A stretch of DNA of 47,541 nt from Bacteroidetes bacterium GWF2_33_38 (GTDB lineage Bacteria; Bacteroidota; Bacteroidia; Bacteroidales; GWF2-33-38): NCBI GenBank assembly GCA_001769505.1, contig MEOF01000068.1:1-47541 (forward strand), written 5' to 3'. Below, piece after piece: positions 16,085 through 31,915 of the stretch. The position numbers and the translations under genes are program-made. Each line of letters opens with the position of its first letter. Positions within the stretch are counted from its first letter, which is position 1. The notes under the pieces were generated by a model. The model made no database searches, was not told the origin of the DNA, and saw nothing but the letters and a program-made list of their open reading frames with translations.

Positions 16085-16555
16085 TTAAATTCCTAATTTT
16101 GGAACACGATTTTTAAAAGTGTTGGGGAATGTGCAGGACTCACAAGTGGATGCTTGCGAGAGATAGGGGCCGAGCCCCTCAAATATAGTGTCGTTATATT
16201 CATAATTACAAAAATTACCAAAACCTAAACTATCAAAATCAAGTGTTAAAACATCTTTCTCAAAATAAAAATGTCCATCAATATAAAAATATATGCTTGT
16301 TCCATTTATATAACCTTCTAACCAGCAATCATGACTATTCTCACCTACCATAACAAGTCTAGCAGAGTTACATTTGTCGTTATATAAATATATTGACTCT
16401 TCATTGTTTATTTTCAAATCCCAAACCATCCAATCTCCAGATAATTTATTTTTAGTTGAACTCAAACCTATTCCATCTACAAATCGATCACAACCTGTGC
16501 TGGTAATAAAAAATGCAACGATTATAAATAGAAAAATCTTCTTTATTTGTTTCAT
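16085..16555 (-). CDS. Small lipoprotein, divergent member of a four-gene family
   Basis: A 156-residue lipoprotein with a signal peptide and the lipobox ending STGC near residue 22. After the Cys comes DRFVDGIGLSSTKNKLSGDW, a weaker form of the motif C-x-K-F-E-x-G-P-x-I-S-L-x-S-K shared with the genes at 16594, 21632 and 22232. The central lipocalin-like beta strands are recognisable. The C-terminus differs: it lacks the family ending (RLTxxELW) and has a CESC motif and a short basic tail. It may be truncated or diverged. The upstream paralog is 38 bases away. Role unknown. Confidence 0.8.
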   Translation of the reverse strand: MKQIKKIFLFIIVAFFITSTGCDRFVDGIGLSSTKNKLSGDWMVWDLKINNEESIYLYNDKCNSARLVMVGENSHDCWLEGYINGTSIYFYIDGHFYFEKDVLTLDFDSLGFGNFCNYEYNDTIFEGLGPYLSQASTCESCTFPNTFKNRVPKLGI

Positions 16556-16593: not shown

Positions 16594-17052
16594 TCACTCA
16601 ATAGCCTTAAATTCATAATGTTTATAATCGAAATGGCATTCCATCCATAATTCATCGTTTGTTAGTCTTTTTATCCACCAATTTACGGCTATATTGCGAT
16701 TAAAAGGACCAAATCCTACAAACAAGCTATCATCAAAATCACCCATTACTAGGGTAATTGCCGTTCCTCCAGCATAAAGTCTACCCGAATGATTTGAAAC
16801 TTCGAAACCGTAATATGCTTTATATTCTTTTTTATCAAACCAAAAGTAGATAGGTGTATTCAAACATTTTTCATTAAATTCATCAATGGATTCTACGCCA
16901 TCAACTTTTAAACTCGTAACGTTCCAATTGTTATATAACCTCTTATCCTTCGACCGTAGACTAATTAGAGGTCCATCCTCATATTTTTGGCAGCTATTGG
17001 TAGCCAATAGTAAAATAATAGTTATGAAAAACAATAGCTTTTTTGCAACCAT
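16594..17052 (-). CDS. Small lipoprotein of the FEEGP-ISL family
   Basis: A 152-residue lipoprotein when started at the ATG 17052, which puts a hydrophobic signal directly before the lipobox ATNSC. An in-frame upstream start exists but would add a hydrophilic stretch before the signal. The mature protein begins QKYEDGPLISLRSKDKRL and ends with IKRLTNDELWMECHFD then a Tyr/Phe-rich strand. The pattern of short beta strands around a conserved Trp resembles lipocalin-like Bacteroidota lipoproteins. Paralogs lie at 16085, 21632 and 22232. Ligand and partner are unknown. Confidence 0.85.
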   Translation of the reverse strand: MVAKKLLFFITIILLLATNSCQKYEDGPLISLRSKDKRLYNNWNVTSLKVDGVESIDEFNEKCLNTPIYFWFDKKEYKAYYGFEVSNHSGRLYAGGTAITLVMGDFDDSLFVGFGPFNRNIAVNWWIKRLTNDELWMECHFDYKHYEFKAIE

Positions 17053-17352
17053 ACTTTTTCTTTTATTTGTGTTTTTGGCAACATGTATTATTGCGAAAAT
17101 ACTCAATTATATGTATTTATTCAAGAAAAATGAGTGCGAAATTTCAGTTTTATCGGTTTATAATTTTAATTGTTAGATGGAATACTCAATGAAAATAATC
17201 ATATCGGTTGTTGTTTTATCCTAAATAAGCCCTATTAAACATTCGTTTGTTGAAAATATTCAATCTTTATTCAAAAATTTAACAAATAAGCAGTCTATCT
17301 TCGTAATTGTATTCTATAAGGTTCTGTGTTTTCAAATTATAATAAAAAAAAT

Positions 17353-20581: not shown

Positions 20582-21562
20582 ATGATAAAACAAGTTTTTA
20601 TTTTTTTGGGATTTCTTGCAACAATTGTTGTTTCTTGCAATAAACAAGATTCATTGCTTCCAAACATAACTGGAAAAGCAGGAGAAGTAGTTGTTGTAAT
20701 CGACGACAATGAATGGAATTCAAATCCAGGAAACAGCCTGCAAACAATTTTAAATCAACATCACGTAGCTCTGCCACAACCAGAACCAATATTCGATTTA
20801 ATAAGAATTCCTCATAAAGCATTTTCAAGTATTTTTAAATCTCATCGAAATATTATTATTGTAGAAAAAGGAAATGGTTTTGAAAAGCCGGCTATAATCG
20901 TTAAGAAAAATGTTTGGGCGAGTCCGCAATTATTTATAAATATTGTAGCAAAAACATCTCAAGAGTTAAACGATTTAATCGAAAAAAACGAAGGTTTAAT
21001 TGTTCGTTATATCGAAGAAGCTGAAAGAGAAAGGATTATTGAAAACTATAAAAAATACGAAGACCTTAAAATACGTAAAGACCTAGAAAAAAAATATAAT
21101 CTTGCCTTGAATATTCCAAAGGGCTACAAACTCGATACCGACACCAATAACTTTGTTTGGATTTCGCACGAAACTCCATTAATTAGTCAGGGAATTTTTG
21201 TTTACTCATACGAATATTCCGACACAAGCATGTTTTCCTTAGATAGCTTAATCAATAAACGAAACAAATATTTGAAACATTATGTTTCGGGGCCTGCTCC
21301 CAATAGCTACATGACAACCGAACGAGATTTTCCAATATCGTACAAGGAATTTATGAAAGACAGCATGTATATTGCCGAAATTCGTGGATTATGGAAATTG
21401 GAAGGCGATTTTATGGGAGGTCCTTTTATCAGTTTTTCGACTGCCGACACAAAACGAAATCGAATTGTAACTGTCGAATGCTATGTTTATGCTCCAAAAT
21501 ACGATAAAAGAAATTATTTACGTCAAGTTGAGGGAATTTTATACACGCTCAAGATTAAATAA
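20582..21562 (+). CDS. DUF4837-family lipoprotein
   Basis: A 326-residue lipoprotein; the start at 20582 gives a short signal with lipobox VVSC. The sequence fits the Bacteroidota DUF4837 family: GKAGEVVVVIDDNEW near the N-terminus, FDLIRIPHKAFSSIFKSHRN, a long charged helix at about 130-175, and WKLEGDFMGGPFISF later. The family is periplasmic or membrane-facing, with no assigned function. It lies 57 bases after the lytic transglycosylase, which suggests cotranscription and an envelope role. Confidence 0.85.
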   Translation: MIKQVFIFLGFLATIVVSCNKQDSLLPNITGKAGEVVVVIDDNEWNSNPGNSLQTILNQHHVALPQPEPIFDLIRIPHKAFSSIFKSHRNIIIVEKGNGFEKPAIIVKKNVWASPQLFINIVAKTSQELNDLIEKNEGLIVRYIEEAERERIIENYKKYEDLKIRKDLEKKYNLALNIPKGYKLDTDTNNFVWISHETPLISQGIFVYSYEYSDTSMFSLDSLINKRNKYLKHYVSGPAPNSYMTTERDFPISYKEFMKDSMYIAEIRGLWKLEGDFMGGPFISFSTADTKRNRIVTVECYVYAPKYDKRNYLRQVEGILYTLKIK

Positions 21563-21631
21563 CTTGATGATTTTTTGGAATTCACATTTAGAAATAGCTT
21601 ATATTTGTATAAATTTTTAATTATTTTAATT

Positions 21632-22171
21632 ATGAAAAGAGTAATCACGCTTTCGACATTGTTTATTTTAGTTGCTTTTACATTTAATAGCTGTTCAAAA
21701 TTTGAAGAAGGACCTGGAATAAGTTTAAAATCTAAAAAAGCAAGACTAACCAATACATGGACAATTGAAACTATAACCGACAAGCAAACTGGAGACGAAA
21801 TCTCGATTATGGAACTTCTAGGCGGTGGCGAAAGTGACTCGTCTGGACTTGGCTTTGAAATCGAGTTGAAATTTGATTTCGTAAAAGATGGAACAATGGA
21901 AATGATTGCCGGAGTTAACATAATGGGTTTTTCATACGAAGTTAAATCTCCTGGAACATGGGAATTTGTTGGAGATACTGGTTTGGAACTAATCATTGAT
22001 TCTAGCGAATTGGGAGATATAAACGGCGAATCAACCAACGACTCGACTGAACCTGAAACAATGGAGTATAACATATTGCGTTTGGCAAGTAACGAACTTT
22101 GGCTCGAATATACCGAAGAAGTAGATGGAGCTGATGTTGAATACGAAATTCATCTAATTCCAGCTGAATAA
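21632..22171 (+). CDS. Small lipoprotein of the FEEGP-ISL family
   Basis: A 179-residue lipoprotein with a signal peptide and Cys in the context FNSCSKFEEGPGISLKSKKA. The start at 21632 is chosen because the signal follows immediately. It has the family Trp (NTWTIETI) and the family ending ILRLASNELWLEY. It is the longest of the four paralogs, with an acidic Ser/Gly-rich insert (GGGESDSSGLG) and a second near residue 135. It is followed by a strong hairpin with a T-run, then by a paralog. Lipocalin-like fold is inferred; function unknown. Confidence 0.85.
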   Translation: MKRVITLSTLFILVAFTFNSCSKFEEGPGISLKSKKARLTNTWTIETITDKQTGDEISIMELLGGGESDSSGLGFEIELKFDFVKDGTMEMIAGVNIMGFSYEVKSPGTWEFVGDTGLELIIDSSELGDINGESTNDSTEPETMEYNILRLASNELWLEYTEEVDGADVEYEIHLIPAE

Positions 22172-22190
22172 TAACACTAGAATATGGAGT

Positions 22191-22230
22191 AAAGGGAACT
22201 CAAAATTCATTTTTTGGCTCCCTTTTTTAT
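22191..22230 (+). terminator. Terminator between tandem lipoprotein paralogs
   Basis: AAAGGGA (22191-22197) pairs with TCCCTTT (22219-22225), with further A/T pairing inside, followed by TTTATT. The next ATG, on the same strand, begins at 22232, one base after the T-run. Confidence 0.75.
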
Positions 22231-22231
22231 T

Positions 22232-22639
22232 ATGTATAAATTTTTGATTAAAATATTGCTTGTTTCTTTCCTCTTCGTAGGTTGTACAAAATTTGAAGAA
22301 GGACCTAAAATTAGCCTTTTTTCAAAAGCCAAAAGAATTATACGAACTTGGGAAATTGAATACGTTCACGACTTAACGGTTGATGAAATTTACACATCTG
22401 ACTACGATGGATGGAGTTTCTCGCCTCAACGAAATAGTGTTTACTCAAAAAAACATCTTTACAACGGAATCGAATCACAAGAAGACGGATTCTGGAAATT
22501 TGAAGATGATATTTTGTTCTTAATTCACGAGGAAGAAGAAATTGAATACGAAGAGCAATACAAAGTGCTTCGCCTAACGACAAAAGAACTTTGGATTAGC
22601 AACGACAAAGAGGAAATTCATTATGTCGTCCAAGATTAA
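22232..22639 (+). CDS. Small lipoprotein of the FEEGP-ISL family
   Basis: A 135-residue lipoprotein with a signal peptide and lipobox FVGC, then TKFEEGPKISLFSKAKRI. The Trp (RTWEIEYV) and the C-terminal VLRLTTKELWIS are conserved with the copies at 16594 and 21632. The start at 22232 is preferred to a TTG six codons upstream that lies in the terminator stem. Its last 17 bases overlap the start of the GT9 gene, so the two are probably translationally coupled. Function unknown. Confidence 0.85.
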   Translation: MYKFLIKILLVSFLFVGCTKFEEGPKISLFSKAKRIIRTWEIEYVHDLTVDEIYTSDYDGWSFSPQRNSVYSKKHLYNGIESQEDGFWKFEDDILFLIHEEEEIEYEEQYKVLRLTTKELWISNDKEEIHYVVQD

Positions 22640-23621
22640 GTTTTTAATTATTCGTTTCAGTTCAATTGGCGATATTGTGCTGACATCACCCGTTGTTCGA
22701 ATCATTAAGGAACAAATCGGAAATTCAGAAGTACATTTTTTAACTAAAACGGAGTACTCATTTATCCTTTCTAACAATCCCAATATAACAAAGGTTCACT
22801 CGTTTGAAAAAAATCTTACTAAATTAATTGCCGAACTGAAATACGAACATTTCGACTATATAATCGATTTGCACAACAATATCAGAACTCGAATCATTAA
22901 AAATAAGTTGCAAGTCCCCTCTTTTTCGTTCAATAAATTGAATTTTAAAAAATGGATGTTTGTAAATTTCAAACAAAACAAATTGCCCAACATTCATATT
23001 GTCGATAGATACATAAACACCTTACACGTCTTCGATGTTACAAACGACAACAAAGGATTGGACTATTACATTCCGAAGGAAGATGAAATTAGCCTTCCGA
23101 ATTTAGATTCAGAATATATTGCCTTTGTCATTGGAGCAAAGCATTTTACTAAGCAAATACCAACCGAAAAAATAGTTGAAATTTGTGAAAAATTGGATTT
23201 TCCAATTGTTTTTTTGGGCGGAAAATCAGATGAGGTAAAATCAAAAAAAATCATTGCATCGTTGCGAGAAAAACGAAGCAATCTTAATATTTTCGATGGA
23301 TGCGGAAAATATAACTTGAATCAGTCGGCTTCGATTATAAAAAATGCGAAAGTTGTAATTACTCCCGATACCGGATTAATGCACATTGCAGCAGCATTTC
23401 ATAAAAAAATAATTTCGGTTTGGGGAAATACTGTACCCGATTTTGGAATGTATCCGTATTTACCAAACGAAAAATCGGTAATTGTCGAAAACAAAAACCT
23501 GAAATGCCGCCCTTGCTCAAAAATTGGCTTTTCAACATGTCCAAAAAAACATTTTAAATGTATGGCAGATCTTGATTCTACTTACATTTCGGATTTGGCA
23601 AACAAATTATTTAAAAATTAA
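22623..23621 (+). CDS. Glycosyltransferase family 9 (heptosyltransferase-like)
   Basis: A 332-residue cytoplasmic or peripheral membrane glycosyltransferase. The N-terminus LIIRFSSIGDIVLTSPVVR and the C-terminal TPDTGLMHIAAAFHKKIISV are GT9 signatures; the second binds the nucleotide-sugar. Relatives add heptose or similar sugars to the lipopolysaccharide inner core. A Cys-rich segment near the end (CRPCSKIGFSTCPKKHFKC) is also common in the family. Sugar donor cannot be read. It overlaps the preceding lipoprotein gene by 17 bases and ends two bases before the U32 gene. Confidence 0.92.
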   Translation: MSSKIKFLIIRFSSIGDIVLTSPVVRIIKEQIGNSEVHFLTKTEYSFILSNNPNITKVHSFEKNLTKLIAELKYEHFDYIIDLHNNIRTRIIKNKLQVPSFSFNKLNFKKWMFVNFKQNKLPNIHIVDRYINTLHVFDVTNDNKGLDYYIPKEDEISLPNLDSEYIAFVIGAKHFTKQIPTEKIVEICEKLDFPIVFLGGKSDEVKSKKIIASLREKRSNLNIFDGCGKYNLNQSASIIKNAKVVITPDTGLMHIAAAFHKKIISVWGNTVPDFGMYPYLPNEKSVIVENKNLKCRPCSKIGFSTCPKKHFKCMADLDSTYISDLANKLFKN

Positions 23622-29059: not shown

Positions 29060-30400
29060 TTATTTTTTCCCCGACCAGAATTTTAAGTAAAGATTTATTC
29101 CGCCAGTTGTGTATAAAATGTTATCGGTAGCAAGTTTTCGAAGTGGAAATTTGAAATAAGGTTCTATATGAAGTTTCATTTTTGAACTTAAATTGTATGC
29201 AACTCCGCCTGATAAATTGAGTTGTCCCGCAAAATCGAATTTATTCATTCCACTTATTTCGACATTTTCTTTTTGGTCGTACGAAATTTCTTGTTCCACA
29301 GCTTGAATTCCATCAGCGGTAACTTGATATGATGTTTCGGTTGTGGTAACTTGATAATTGTATTCGTAATTTTCGTTGATATATCCGATAGAAGAAACTC
29401 CGGCAGAAACAAAAATTTCTCGAGTGGGTTTTTCACTAATATTATATTTCAAATTACAAGGAATCGTAAAGCTAAGAAATTGTAAATTGCTCTCTTCTGG
29501 AGTCTTGAAATTTGATTGGAGCGATTCGTTTATAAAATTTACCGACTGTTTTGAAACAATCATTCCAACTTGTAAATCGGCTTTTTTAACTAAGGCTAAA
29601 TCTGTTAAAACTCCGCCTCCTAAGTTTACTTCAGGATTGTTGATGGTTTTTGAATTGTTTACCTGAGAACTTAGCAATACAGAAAGGTTCAGCTTGTTTG
29701 CTTTGTTCTCATCTTCCGAATCTTCGTAGAAGATTTCATCTTTTTCGGCAATTTCGATTTTGGGAGCTTCAATTGTATTTGGTGTAATGATAGAGTCAAT
29801 AATTGTTTTTTCTTCAACAAAAGTCAACTCAGAAGTAATTTCACTAGAAGAATTTAATGGTTCGACAATTCTAATTTCTGACGAATCTAAATTTACTGTA
29901 AACTTATCAATTGATTCTTGTTTGGCAATTTGCGTTACGATGGAATTTGTATTTGATAATTGATTTTGCTTCGGTAAGGGAATTGAATTTTTAGAATTTA
30001 TTTTTTGAATCAATACCGTTTTTTGATTTTTTGATTTTTGATCTAAACCTGTTTTTTCTTGAATGTTTTTCTCAGTTAAGGTTGAGGTGATTTCGGTTTT
30101 ATGAATAGGGTTATGTATTTTTTTTGCAGTTGTATCAAGTAGGATTTTTGTGTTTTCGTTTGCAAACTGATTTGTTTGGGTGTAATAAAATTTCGACGAA
30201 AAAATAATTCCGAAAACAAGAACAGCGGCTGCACCTGAAATGATATAAAGCAAAATTTTTCTTCGCTTCTTTTTTGCCAATTTTGCTTTCAATAAATCCC
30301 AATTTGCAGGACTATAGTCTGGCGAATATTCGTCGAAACTTTGTTTGATTTTATTGGCTAATATTTTATCGAAATCGTTTGTCATTGGTTGATATTTCAT
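29060..30400 (-). CDS. Putative anti-sigma factor fused to a beta-barrel-like domain
   Basis: A 446-residue protein encoded nine bases after the ECF sigma gene. Residues 1-48 are charged and probably cytoplasmic, with the motif YSPANWDLLKAKL that recurs in Bacteroidota sigma-linked membrane proteins. One membrane helix follows (about 49-69). Residues 75-225 are a Lys/Ser/Thr/Glu-rich low-complexity linker. The last 220 residues have alternating strands like the small outer-membrane barrel family (VNLGGGVLTDLALVKKADLQ, then LSFTIPCNLKYNI, IFVSAGVSSIGYI, MKLHIEPYFKFPL, GGINLYLKFW). Anti-sigma activity is inferred from position and topology. The barrel could instead stay as a periplasmic beta domain. 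Confidence 0.75.
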   Translation of the reverse strand: MKYQPMTNDFDKILANKIKQSFDEYSPDYSPANWDLLKAKLAKKKRRKILLYIISGAAAVLVFGIIFSSKFYYTQTNQFANENTKILLDTTAKKIHNPIHKTEITSTLTEKNIQEKTGLDQKSKNQKTVLIQKINSKNSIPLPKQNQLSNTNSIVTQIAKQESIDKFTVNLDSSEIRIVEPLNSSSEITSELTFVEEKTIIDSIITPNTIEAPKIEIAEKDEIFYEDSEDENKANKLNLSVLLSSQVNNSKTINNPEVNLGGGVLTDLALVKKADLQVGMIVSKQSVNFINESLQSNFKTPEESNLQFLSFTIPCNLKYNISEKPTREIFVSAGVSSIGYINENYEYNYQVTTTETSYQVTADGIQAVEQEISYDQKENVEISGMNKFDFAGQLNLSGGVAYNLSSKMKLHIEPYFKFPLRKLATDNILYTTGGINLYLKFWSGKK

Positions 30401-30409
30401 TTTTAAAGT

Positions 30410-30988
30410 CTAAACTACGGCATGCTCTTTTTTAAAAACTTTTTGCTCGATATGTTCATTATAAAGCTGTCGCAATTTTTCTTTTGCTCTTTTTAAATAT
30501 GATCTTGAGGTTGCTTCGGTAATTTTCATCATTTCGGCAATTTCGTTATGTTTATAGCCCTCAATCTCGTAAAGGTTAAAAACCATTCTGTATTGGTCGG
30601 GGAGTTCTCTAATCAACATCATAATGTCTTCTACCGATAAATTTTCGAGAATTTCTTGATTAAAATCAGAATGTTCGATTTCCGAAATGTCAACCAATAA
30701 ATTGTGCTTTGAGTTTGCCCTATAATAATCGATTGAAGTATTTACAACAATTCGTCGAAGCCAATGCTTAAATGGAACTTCGTGCTTGTAATTTTTAATA
30801 TTATTAAAAACCTTTAAAAAACTATCATTCAGAATTTCTTCAGCTATTTCGCGAGCTCCCGAATACGATAAACAAATACTCATAGCGTAAGCATAAAAAT
30901 GTTTATAAAGTAATTCTTGGTGCTTGATATTGCCTTTTTTGCATTCGTCGATTAACCGCTCTTCAGCTCCTAAGAATAAGGTCTTCAC
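30410..30988 (-). CDS. ECF RNA polymerase sigma factor
   Basis: A 192-residue sigma-70 family, extracytoplasmic-function factor. Region 2 (about 10-80) includes LYKHFYAYAMSICLSYSG and FKHWLRRIVVNTSIDYYR. Region 4 (about 125-180) includes LPDQYRMVFNLYEIEGYKHN then EIAEMMKITEATSRSYLKRA. The start is GTG at 30988: an in-frame stop lies three codons upstream, and no other start leaves region 2 intact. It is followed at nine bases by a membrane-anchored putative anti-sigma factor. An inverted and direct repeat array (30994-31068) lies immediately upstream, so autoregulation is likely. Confidence 0.93.
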   Translation of the reverse strand: MKTLFLGAEERLIDECKKGNIKHQELLYKHFYAYAMSICLSYSGAREIAEEILNDSFLKVFNNIKNYKHEVPFKHWLRRIVVNTSIDYYRANSKHNLLVDISEIEHSDFNQEILENLSVEDIMMLIRELPDQYRMVFNLYEIEGYKHNEIAEMMKITEATSRSYLKRAKEKLRQLYNEHIEQKVFKKEHAVV

Positions 30989-30993
30989 TCGTT

Positions 30994-31068
30994 AGTTTAT
31001 AAAGTTGAAAGTTTGTAAAGTTTAAGAAAAATAGCTTGAGTCATCTTCCGTTCAACTTTACAAACTTT
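30994..31068. repeat. Inverted and direct repeat array upstream of the ECF sigma gene
   Basis: AAAGTTTGTAAAGTT (31008-31022) and AACTTTACAAACTTT (31054-31068) are a perfect 15-bp inverted repeat with a 31-base spacer. AGTTTATAAAGTT (30994-31006) is a third, direct copy with one mismatch, 16 bases from the second. On the plus strand a T-run follows the right arm, so a terminator against antisense reading is an alternative to an operator. Confidence 0.75.
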
Positions 31069-31078
31069 GTAATCTTTT

Positions 31079-31915
31079 TTACTCAATTTCAGTTATACAC
31101 ATTATTTTTACCGGAATCGATGGTCCGACATAAGCCATACAAATAACATCGTCGTAGTATTCAGGATATTCTGTTGGGTCGGCAGTTACAACTCCGATTG
31201 AATATTTTTTACCAGCAATAGGAGTAAATCCTTGTAAACTTTCGTCAAGACCGAGTGGTTGCAAGTAATAATTAAACGTGTAAACATTTGAGGAATCATC
31301 AACCACAGTTTCTCCATTTTCGATAGCAAACCACATGTTTTCCCATAAACCATTTCCGCAAATAACATTTTCTGCTACAACGGTCATGTTGCAAGTTTCG
31401 CTTTCTGTTATTTCAAATGGGACATAAGGGTCGCAGCCTCCGCCATAATATAGAGAATCGTCAGACGAACCTCCATTGTAAATGTCAATATTGATGTCGG
31501 GATAATAAATTGAGTCGCTCAAATCGGTCAAATCGATAATGATAACTTCGGTAATCCAAGCTTCGCATGCGTCACCGTTTGCGTTGTGCTGAATAATAAA
31601 ATTTACTTCGGGAGAATTATCTTCTGAATTTGTAACCACGCCATCCCAAATAAAATCAAACGTATGCTCCTCACAACCACCGCTGTACGAAACTGTAATA
31701 TTTAAAAGATTTCCATTTTGAACAATTCCGTCTAACACAAATGGGTCGCTTGATTCTGACGAACGGTTTTCGTAAGCATCGTTATACTCCGATTCGCCAA
31801 TAGCATATTTCACACTCGAAATTCGATCGGAAGGTGCTAAAATATTTTCTTCTTTACAAGACGAAAACGCACTAATTATCGCAAGTGCAGCAACAAAAAT
31901 GATTGATTTTTTCAT
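31079..31915 (-). CDS. Lipoprotein of unknown function
   Basis: A 278-residue lipoprotein with a signal peptide and lipobox FSSC at about residue 20. The mature protein has SYSGGCEEHTFDFIWDG and then NGDACEAWITEVIIIDLTDL, a pattern I associate with Bacteroidota lipoproteins of unassigned role, plus a Gly/Asp/Tyr-rich loop and several Cys (GGCDP, ETCNMTV, VICGNG, DVICMA) that could form disulfides. It lies about 90 bases upstream of the ECF sigma gene on the same strand. It may be a target or a sensor partner; this is only inferred from position. Confidence 0.8.
   Translation of the reverse strand: MKKSIIFVAALAIISAFSSCKEENILAPSDRISSVKYAIGESEYNDAYENRSSESSDPFVLDGIVQNGNLLNITVSYSGGCEEHTFDFIWDGVVTNSEDNSPEVNFIIQHNANGDACEAWITEVIIIDLTDLSDSIYYPDINIDIYNGGSSDDSLYYGGGCDPYVPFEITESETCNMTVVAENVICGNGLWENMWFAIENGETVVDDSSNVYTFNYYLQPLGLDESLQGFTPIAGKKYSIGVVTADPTEYPEYYDDVICMAYVGPSIPVKIMCITEIE

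Follow-up and report, generated by a model that had tools for sequence, protein, structure and literature searches.

A probable Das–Dma/EcfO–Reo-type sigma/anti-sigma pair with a predicted outer-membrane barrel in Bacteroidetes bacterium GWF2_33_38

The sigma factor locus and the predicted anatomy of P0001

The window, that is, the whole stretch of DNA analysed here, comprises 47,541 nucleotides of Bacteroidetes bacterium GWF2_33_38 (contig MEOF01000068.1, assembly GCA_001769505.1). Read in the direction of transcription, its minus strand carries three successive genes: one for a lipoprotein of 278 aa (31079–31915), one for an ECF sigma factor (30410–30988) and one for a protein of 446 aa (29060–30400). 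The sigma gene's stop codon extends to 30410 and the following ATG is at 30400, leaving a gap of 9 bases; both ORFs and this spacing are as the original prediction had placed them. The features of the locus and of its protein P0001 are as follows.

31079–31915, minus strand: P0003, NigD-like lipoprotein, 278 aa, a possible regulon or operon gene (profiles, weak model, neighbourhood)
30994–31068, no strand: AT-rich inverted repeats in the gap separating the NigD-like and sigma genes
30410–30988, minus strand: P0002, ECF sigma factor, Das/EcfO-like, 192 aa, GTG start (Pfam)
29060–30400, minus strand: P0001, probable Dma/Reo-type anti-sigma protein, 446 aa (ORF, OMP_b-brl_2, AlphaFold model, relatives)
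30257–30400, minus strand: N-terminal cytoplasmic module of P0001, residues 1–48, presumed to bind the sigma factor (conservation, profile matches)
30200–30256, minus strand: single predicted membrane helix, residues 49–67, N-terminus inside (hydropathy, charge)
29693–30199, minus strand: predicted periplasmic tether, residues 68–236, mostly disordered (pLDDT, length conservation)
29075–29692, minus strand: predicted outer-membrane beta-barrel, residues 237–442, read as 8 strands (predicted model, structure matches)
29246–29368, minus strand: tip of the longest hairpin, residues 345–385, presumed to lie outside the cell (strands, low identity)

P0002 matches the Pfam families Sigma70_r2 (4.4e-11) and Sigma70_r4_2 (3.6e-16), both over their cut-offs; among the 25 NCBIfam matches listed, only the general ECF superfamily model exceeds its own. 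The AT-rich stretch upstream of the sigma gene contains two arms of 18 nt (31008–31025 and 31051–31068, 94% complementary) and a second pairing (30994–31009 with 31051–31066), and the repeat at 31008–31068 is possibly an attenuator or a mobile remnant. Scans for Sigma-70 promoters and for terminators gave matches no more frequent than in shuffled sequence. Elsewhere in the window, three small lipoprotein genes (16594–17106, 21575–22171 and 22214–22639) have by eye a common start, E/DGP.ISL.SK..R, and a fourth (16085–16555) is, also by eye, more distantly similar to the gene at 16594–17106.

Residues 49–67 are the sole hydrophobic stretch over the cut-off along the whole of P0001, and are preceded by KKKRRK. 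An AlphaFold model of the protein was calculated from a 75-sequence alignment, with a whole-chain mean pLDDT of 74.4 and a pTM of 0.55. The model contains helices at residues 8–24 and 31–82, the membrane helix thus continuing to 82, followed by low confidence up to about residue 236; all 118 residues with pLDDT below 50 lie within 95–229. Strands then occupy residues 237–442, most of them with pLDDT above 90. The longest hairpin is formed by strands 327–361 and 364–383/388–403, the return arm being listed by DSSP as two pieces, and the predicted barrel has eight strands if these pieces are read as one kinked strand.

Pfam analysis of P0001 revealed a match to OMP_b-brl_2 at residues 246–421 (E 6.6e-7; score 30 bits, cut-off 27) and one other match, FAD_binding-like, below its cut-off, while a sequence search of the PDB found no relative. 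Structural comparison using VIA-align returned NspA (1p4t; Z 16.9, rmsd 2.7, 153 residues), OprF (4rlc; Z 16.7, rmsd 2.0, 131 residues) and OmpA (9fzc, 9fzd, 1bxw and 1qjp; Z 16.0–16.5, with OmpA NMR entries at 13.3–13.8). For the C-terminal domain, the prediction is therefore a closed barrel of the OmpA class, at high confidence, and an artefactual barrel was rejected in view of the high pLDDT and the Z scores of about 16–17. The original prediction had named a C-terminal fold other than a closed barrel as refuting it; the predicted fold does not refute it, and the one-helix, linker and barrel anatomy put forward from the sequence was retained, with corrected boundaries: the barrel begins at about residue 237 instead of 225, and the tether measures 169 residues instead of 150.

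FecR pairs usually consist of an ECF sigma gene and, after it, a gene whose product has a single helix. In FecR/TonB signalling, a separate receptor forms the outer part, and an inner-membrane anti-sigma factor relays the signal to the ECF sigma factor. The window pair could accordingly be read as a standard case of cell-surface signalling through a TonB receptor and FecR, with which it would share the passage of an outer-membrane signal to an ECF sigma factor. However, P0001 carries the outer and the inner part on one chain and its C-terminus is a predicted small barrel; no FecR domain was found among its Pfam and NCBIfam matches at E <= 1 (HMMER filters drop most weak matches), and no gene for a SusC/TonB receptor was recognised by eye in the first 60 residues of the neighbouring proteins, an inspection rather than a search. 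A FecR-type pair is thus extremely improbable, and was set aside on the lack of a FecR match in Pfam or NCBIfam.

Conservation of the pair and its genomic neighbours

Genome contigs were scanned with a sigma alignment, and the best 80 of 384 relatives were kept, similarity of the sigma factor being the sole basis for choosing the loci. In every one of the 80, a partner gene encoding 230 aa or more starts between −128 and +68 bases relative to the stop codon of the sigma gene (start codons chosen mechanically). Many of the loci come from close genera and are not independent cases, and two are apparently the contigs G038 and G012. The same two-gene order, which the original prediction had suggested looking for across Bacteroidota, thus recurs in 80 of 80 loci, and a chance neighbourhood was rejected. 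Relatives of the sigma lineage that carry the pair include Belliella, Cyclobacterium, Echinicola, Lutibacter and several Bacteroidales.

The anatomy of the partners is similarly maintained. A helix-like stretch at hydropathy 1.6 was found in 77 of the 80, with a weaker one in the other three, and only L118 has more than one. Complete partners (74 of 80) measure 319–548 aa, with a median of 446. In a 75-row alignment excluding six of the 80 partners, which are cut by contig ends, the net charge is more positive on the N side of the helix in 72 rows, indicating by the charge rule an N-terminus inside the cell, and OMP_b-brl_2 and OMP_b-brl were detected in 61 and 8 rows, respectively (E <= 0.01). 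Whole-protein identity between P0001 and its 74 aligned relatives is 15–27%; mean identity is 34% over residues 1–48, where W34 is nearly invariant, 11% over residues 83–232, 11% over the hairpin tip (345–385) and 32% over residues 386–446.

In the same 75 rows the tether measures 104–229 residues (median 162, quartiles 153 and 173), so that its length is kept and its sequence is not. An extended chain covers 0.34 nm per residue, and even a tether of 104 residues then reaches 35 nm. A disordered tether would be accessible to proteases, and anti-sigma factors are commonly subject to regulated proteolysis; P0001 might thus be cut in the periplasm, leaving an ordinary outer-membrane protein in the barrel and a simple inner-membrane anti-sigma factor in the N-terminal part. 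The tether is nevertheless held at 153–173 residues in the middle half of the 75 proteins, a length that would be needless were the protein always cut, and we consider this reading quite unlikely.

Within the family, P0002 falls in a clade of five rows (SH-aLRT 99, quick tree). The partners L077, L078 and L080 of this clade align with the C-terminal region of P0001, and that of L080 also matches OMP_b-brl_2; the partners of L077, L078 and L079 gave no Pfam match, the last being counted as a barrel by eye only. The window's own genome contains two further pairs of a sigma factor and a long partner, on contigs G000:C31 (L076, 513 aa) and G000:C64 (L074, 587 aa). Both partners have barrel-like ends by local profile, and neither matched a Pfam family at E <= 0.1 along its full length; in a genome search the C31 partner scored 18.3 bits, under the cut-off. 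A pair on contig C58 has a 251-aa partner with no barrel match.

The upstream protein P0003 matches the NigD models NF051862 (E 2.4e-7, 30.8 of 60 bits) and PF17415 (E 0.0023, 18.4 of 22.6 bits) below their curated cut-offs, and is therefore labelled NigD-like rather than NigD. Its structural model is weak (mean pLDDT 55.7), with the C-terminal part (about residues 157–278) unresolved; the eight best PDB matches of the model are all chains of the NigD-like 3qwn (best E 8.8e-4, 20% identity), and a PDB sequence search with P0003 gave nothing meaningful. Among 2094 ORFs of 100 sigma-centred loci, seven homologues of P0003 were found, all directly upstream of the sigma gene and two apparently on the same contig. 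P0003 homologues occupy this position in G058, G038, L122, L135, L158 and L156. Sixty relative genomes contain ten P0003-like places outside the window's genome, of which the best two (G058 and G038) lie directly upstream of a sigma gene and the other eight on contigs without a listed sigma match. In the window's genome, a P0003-like copy adjoins another sigma/anti-sigma pair (G000:C33, about 20600–23000; L031, L175), whose 451-aa partner has a different, cysteine-rich N-terminus.

Approached from the NigD side, 30 loci matching NF051862 in genomes of the same order include eight in which the NigD gene adjoins a homologue of the ECF sigma gene (four on the same strand, four divergent), one of these having a short partner; by manual reading, another two carry a long ORF with a single helix immediately upstream, and the remaining 20 show neither kind of neighbour. 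A census of the genes upstream of the sigma gene in 80 loci gave five NigD-like genes, 14 other lipoprotein-like genes, a class defined by a crude lipobox pattern, 20 copies of one shared gene, about 134 aa long, 16 other genes, 23 loci with none and two at contig edges. The NigD neighbour is thus not general.

Two of these upstream genes stand out in their own right. The shared gene, of 134–136 aa and conserved 65–193 bases upstream of sigma in the 20 loci, mostly from Belliella, Echinicola, Mongoliibacter and similar genera, is one that we take to be OsmC-like. A serpin lipoprotein gene lies upstream of the pair in L098 (2704–3972; PF00079, E 4.5e-112), and genes similar to it in length and start occur in L096, L102 and L133; the four loci are from environmental Bacteroidales and a Bacteroidetes MAG.

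Partners with a CHU_C-like end

The C-termini of the partners were surveyed at 80 sigma places in genomes of the same order, namely, by our count, rows 2–80 of the list of sigma matches without G002:C192 and with G058:C78 and G000:C64 added. Two of the 80 lack a downstream gene, and with L092, L229 and L246 left out of the Pfam scan, 75 proteins were compared. Matches were to OMP_b-brl_2 (24) and OMP_b-brl (10), two counts that may overlap, to CHU_C (23, at E <= 0.01), and to PKD_4 (17) and PKD (17). Local profiles, the barrel profile made from 13 tails chosen as barrels and the CHU_C profile from five, divided 78 partners into 37 barrel-like, 23 CHU_C-like, none with both and 18 with neither. 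The five-sequence CHU_C profile recovers the 23, of which 22 have E 1.3e-15 or better. The CHU_C-ended partners are listed below.

CHU_C-ended partners: L081, L083, L084, L085, L090, L219, L222, L230, L235, L237, L238, L240, L241, L242, L247, L248, L250, L254, L258, L259, L264, L265, L267

They often carry PKD as well and are spread, by manual listing, over 22 genomes, with two in the window's own family. Of 12 CHU_C matches examined singly, six exceed the Pfam cut-off (L081, L083, L222, L248, L265 and L267) and six fall short of it, with E values of at most 6.4e-4. Three of the CHU_C-type pairs (L083, L084 and L090) are followed by M16-like genes, which also precede two of them; judging from the start of their sequences, we take these flanking genes to encode M16-family peptidases.

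The N-termini of the two forms proved mutually recognisable. A profile of barrel-type N-termini found all 23 of the CHU_C type (shuffled, 3/460), and the reciprocal profile found 41 of 43 of the barrel type (shuffled, 8/860); for this test and for the tree, six of the 18 partners with neither end were counted as barrels by eye, two of which match OMP_b-brl_2 over the cut-off, one below it and three not at all (L079, L224 and L251). The N-terminus of P0001 itself matches both the barrel-type (8.6e-11) and the CHU_C-type (2.8e-8) profile, and in a profile comparison with the CHU_C set P0001 aligned at residues 12–56 only (E 1.3e-4, probability 54%). An N-terminal helix-like stretch is present in all 23 CHU_C partners at a hydropathy cut of 1.2, in several of them weakly. 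On a quick sigma tree, made unsure by its long branches, the CHU_C label requires at least eight changes, while the well-supported branches alone are compatible with one origin.

CHU_C is a type-B signal domain of the type IX secretion system (T9SS), and type-B signals bind PorP-like outer-membrane proteins (PMC9143113, abstract). The CHU_C-ended anti-sigmas, too, could therefore bridge both membranes. SprA was found in 59 of 60 genomes, so that the presence of a T9SS cannot discriminate carriers of the CHU_C form. The nearest precedent found is PorA–PorXY–SigP of Porphyromonas gingivalis, in which, according to the cited passages, an ECF sigma factor is influenced by a surface protein whose C-terminal domain is of the T9SS type (PMC7712824). 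PorA differs from the CHU_C-ended relatives in having a signal sequence and a proposed two-component route rather than being a membrane-anchored anti-sigma factor (PMC7712824). The literature searched on anti-sigma factors with T9SS, CHU_C, CTD or PKD yielded no description of a CHU_C-ended anti-sigma factor, and in two papers covering BAM in Bacteroidota a term search gave nothing on sigma factors; the TamL paper cites the Dma paper and no more.

Published counterparts and the proposed switch

The domain order of P0001 has published counterparts, described here from the cited passages of each source. Dma proteins consist of a sigma-binding N-terminus, a helix, a disordered tether and a barrel, and Dma1, Dma2 and Dma3 of Bacteroides thetaiotaomicron occur with the ECF21 sigma factors Das1 and Das2 (PMC13088901). 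Deletion of dma2 leads to more vesicle production, and a dma2–das2 double deletion restores a wild-type gel profile; Dma1/Das1 act through NigD1, and the signal of Dma2 is hypothesised to be a surface glycan (PMC13088901). In Phocaeicola vulgatus, an unusual anti-sigma factor is predicted to span the periplasm and to end in a C-terminal barrel, and loss of its gene gives sigma-dependent protection (PMC9308784). Reo of the EcfO–Reo pair is described as reaching across all five compartments, and production of one NigD in P. vulgatus requires EcfO–Reo, as judged by immunoblot (PMC13114119). The P. vulgatus locus tags (nigD 03762, sigma 03761, anti-sigma 03760; PMC9308784, PMC13114119) suggest the same order of nigD, sigma and anti-sigma genes as in the window.

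The window pair resembles the Dma systems, by description rather than by alignment, in its adjacent ECF sigma and anti-sigma genes and in the order of domains. P0001 adjoins its sigma gene, as do the partners in all 80 related loci, and a single membrane helix with the N-terminus inside, a long disordered tether and a C-terminal beta-barrel are each predicted for it. EcfO–Reo of P. vulgatus and B. fragilis likewise has a sigma factor followed by an envelope-spanning barrel anti-sigma factor, with a nigD of adjacent locus tag; in contrast, the upstream gene of the window is NigD-like only, and encodes the C-terminal part noted above as not resolved in the P0003 model.

The original prediction that a single polypeptide would connect the outer membrane to a cytoplasmic sigma factor is supported by the predicted closed barrel, the N-in charge, the conserved pairing and the published Dma1/2 and Reo. 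Its view that no mechanism is known for such pairs is not supported: Dma1/2 and Reo have been published with genetic evidence of sigma control. The one-polypeptide idea was thus in all probability right and already in print, the window pair being a probable further case of the Dma/Reo type.

We therefore read P0001/P0002, with good confidence, as an envelope-sensing switch of the Das–Dma/EcfO–Reo type. In this pathway, the N-terminal module of P0001 would hold P0002 at the inner membrane, where the helix anchors P0001, and the tether would cross the periplasm to a barrel seated in the outer membrane, with the long hairpin outside. If outer-membrane stress or a surface ligand disturbed the barrel or its surroundings, the N-terminal hold would be loosened or destroyed; the freed P0002 would then transcribe its own operon, probably including the upstream gene for the NigD-like surface lipoprotein. 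Against this reading stand the low identity of P0001 to its aligned relatives (15–27%), the weak model and below-cut-off profile matches of P0003, the few NigD-like neighbours in the upstream census (5 of 80) and the P0003-like copies on contigs without a listed sigma gene (8 of 10), these scattered copies having lowered our confidence slightly.

For the signal itself, two readings both fit. The barrel may bind a specific surface ligand, such as a glycan, through its hairpin, with the signal passing down the tether. This is somewhat doubtful, though possible: the hairpin is long and variable, and a surface glycan is hypothesised for Dma2 (PMC13088901), yet the cited passages name no ligand for any family member, and a disordered tether would be a poor conformational relay. 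Alternatively, the signal may be the assembly of the protein itself. The barrel would be a client of BAM, and the tether would be protected and the sigma factor held only when the barrel is folded in the outer membrane; failed or disturbed assembly would expose the tether to proteases and free the sigma factor, and relatives with a T9SS signal would report on the T9SS likewise.

Assembly sensing is held tentatively and is rather doubtful. The genes ecfO–reo reportedly show the strongest upregulation in P. vulgatus under BcpT or bacteroidetocin A (PMC13114119), and bacteroidetocin A binds and inhibits BamA (PMC9308784). One N-terminal module is joined to a client of either machine, barrel or CHU_C, and neither the tether nor the hairpin tip is conserved in sequence. 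General envelope stress, however, explains the inducers as well, and the authors of the Dma2 work hypothesise a surface glycan (PMC13088901).

Since the outer part comes in two alternative forms, assembly sensing is worth testing. More speculatively, and on balance unlikely, the family could be a modular sensor, common throughout its order, in which an anti-sigma module and helix are joined either to a BAM-made barrel or to a T9SS-addressed PKD/CHU_C tail, each reporting its own assembly or export. If true, the sigma factor would read the state of the BAM or the T9SS machine, and the T9SS form would represent a type of trans-envelope regulator undescribed in the literature searched. Comparison of barrel-ended with T9SS-signal-ended members would be a direct way to ask whether a ligand or the protein's own assembly is sensed. 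For the switch of the Das–Dma/EcfO–Reo type, our results suggest that a design known from work on gut Bacteroides and Phocaeicola serves relatives of the sigma lineage in many other Bacteroidota, in part with a NigD-like neighbour.
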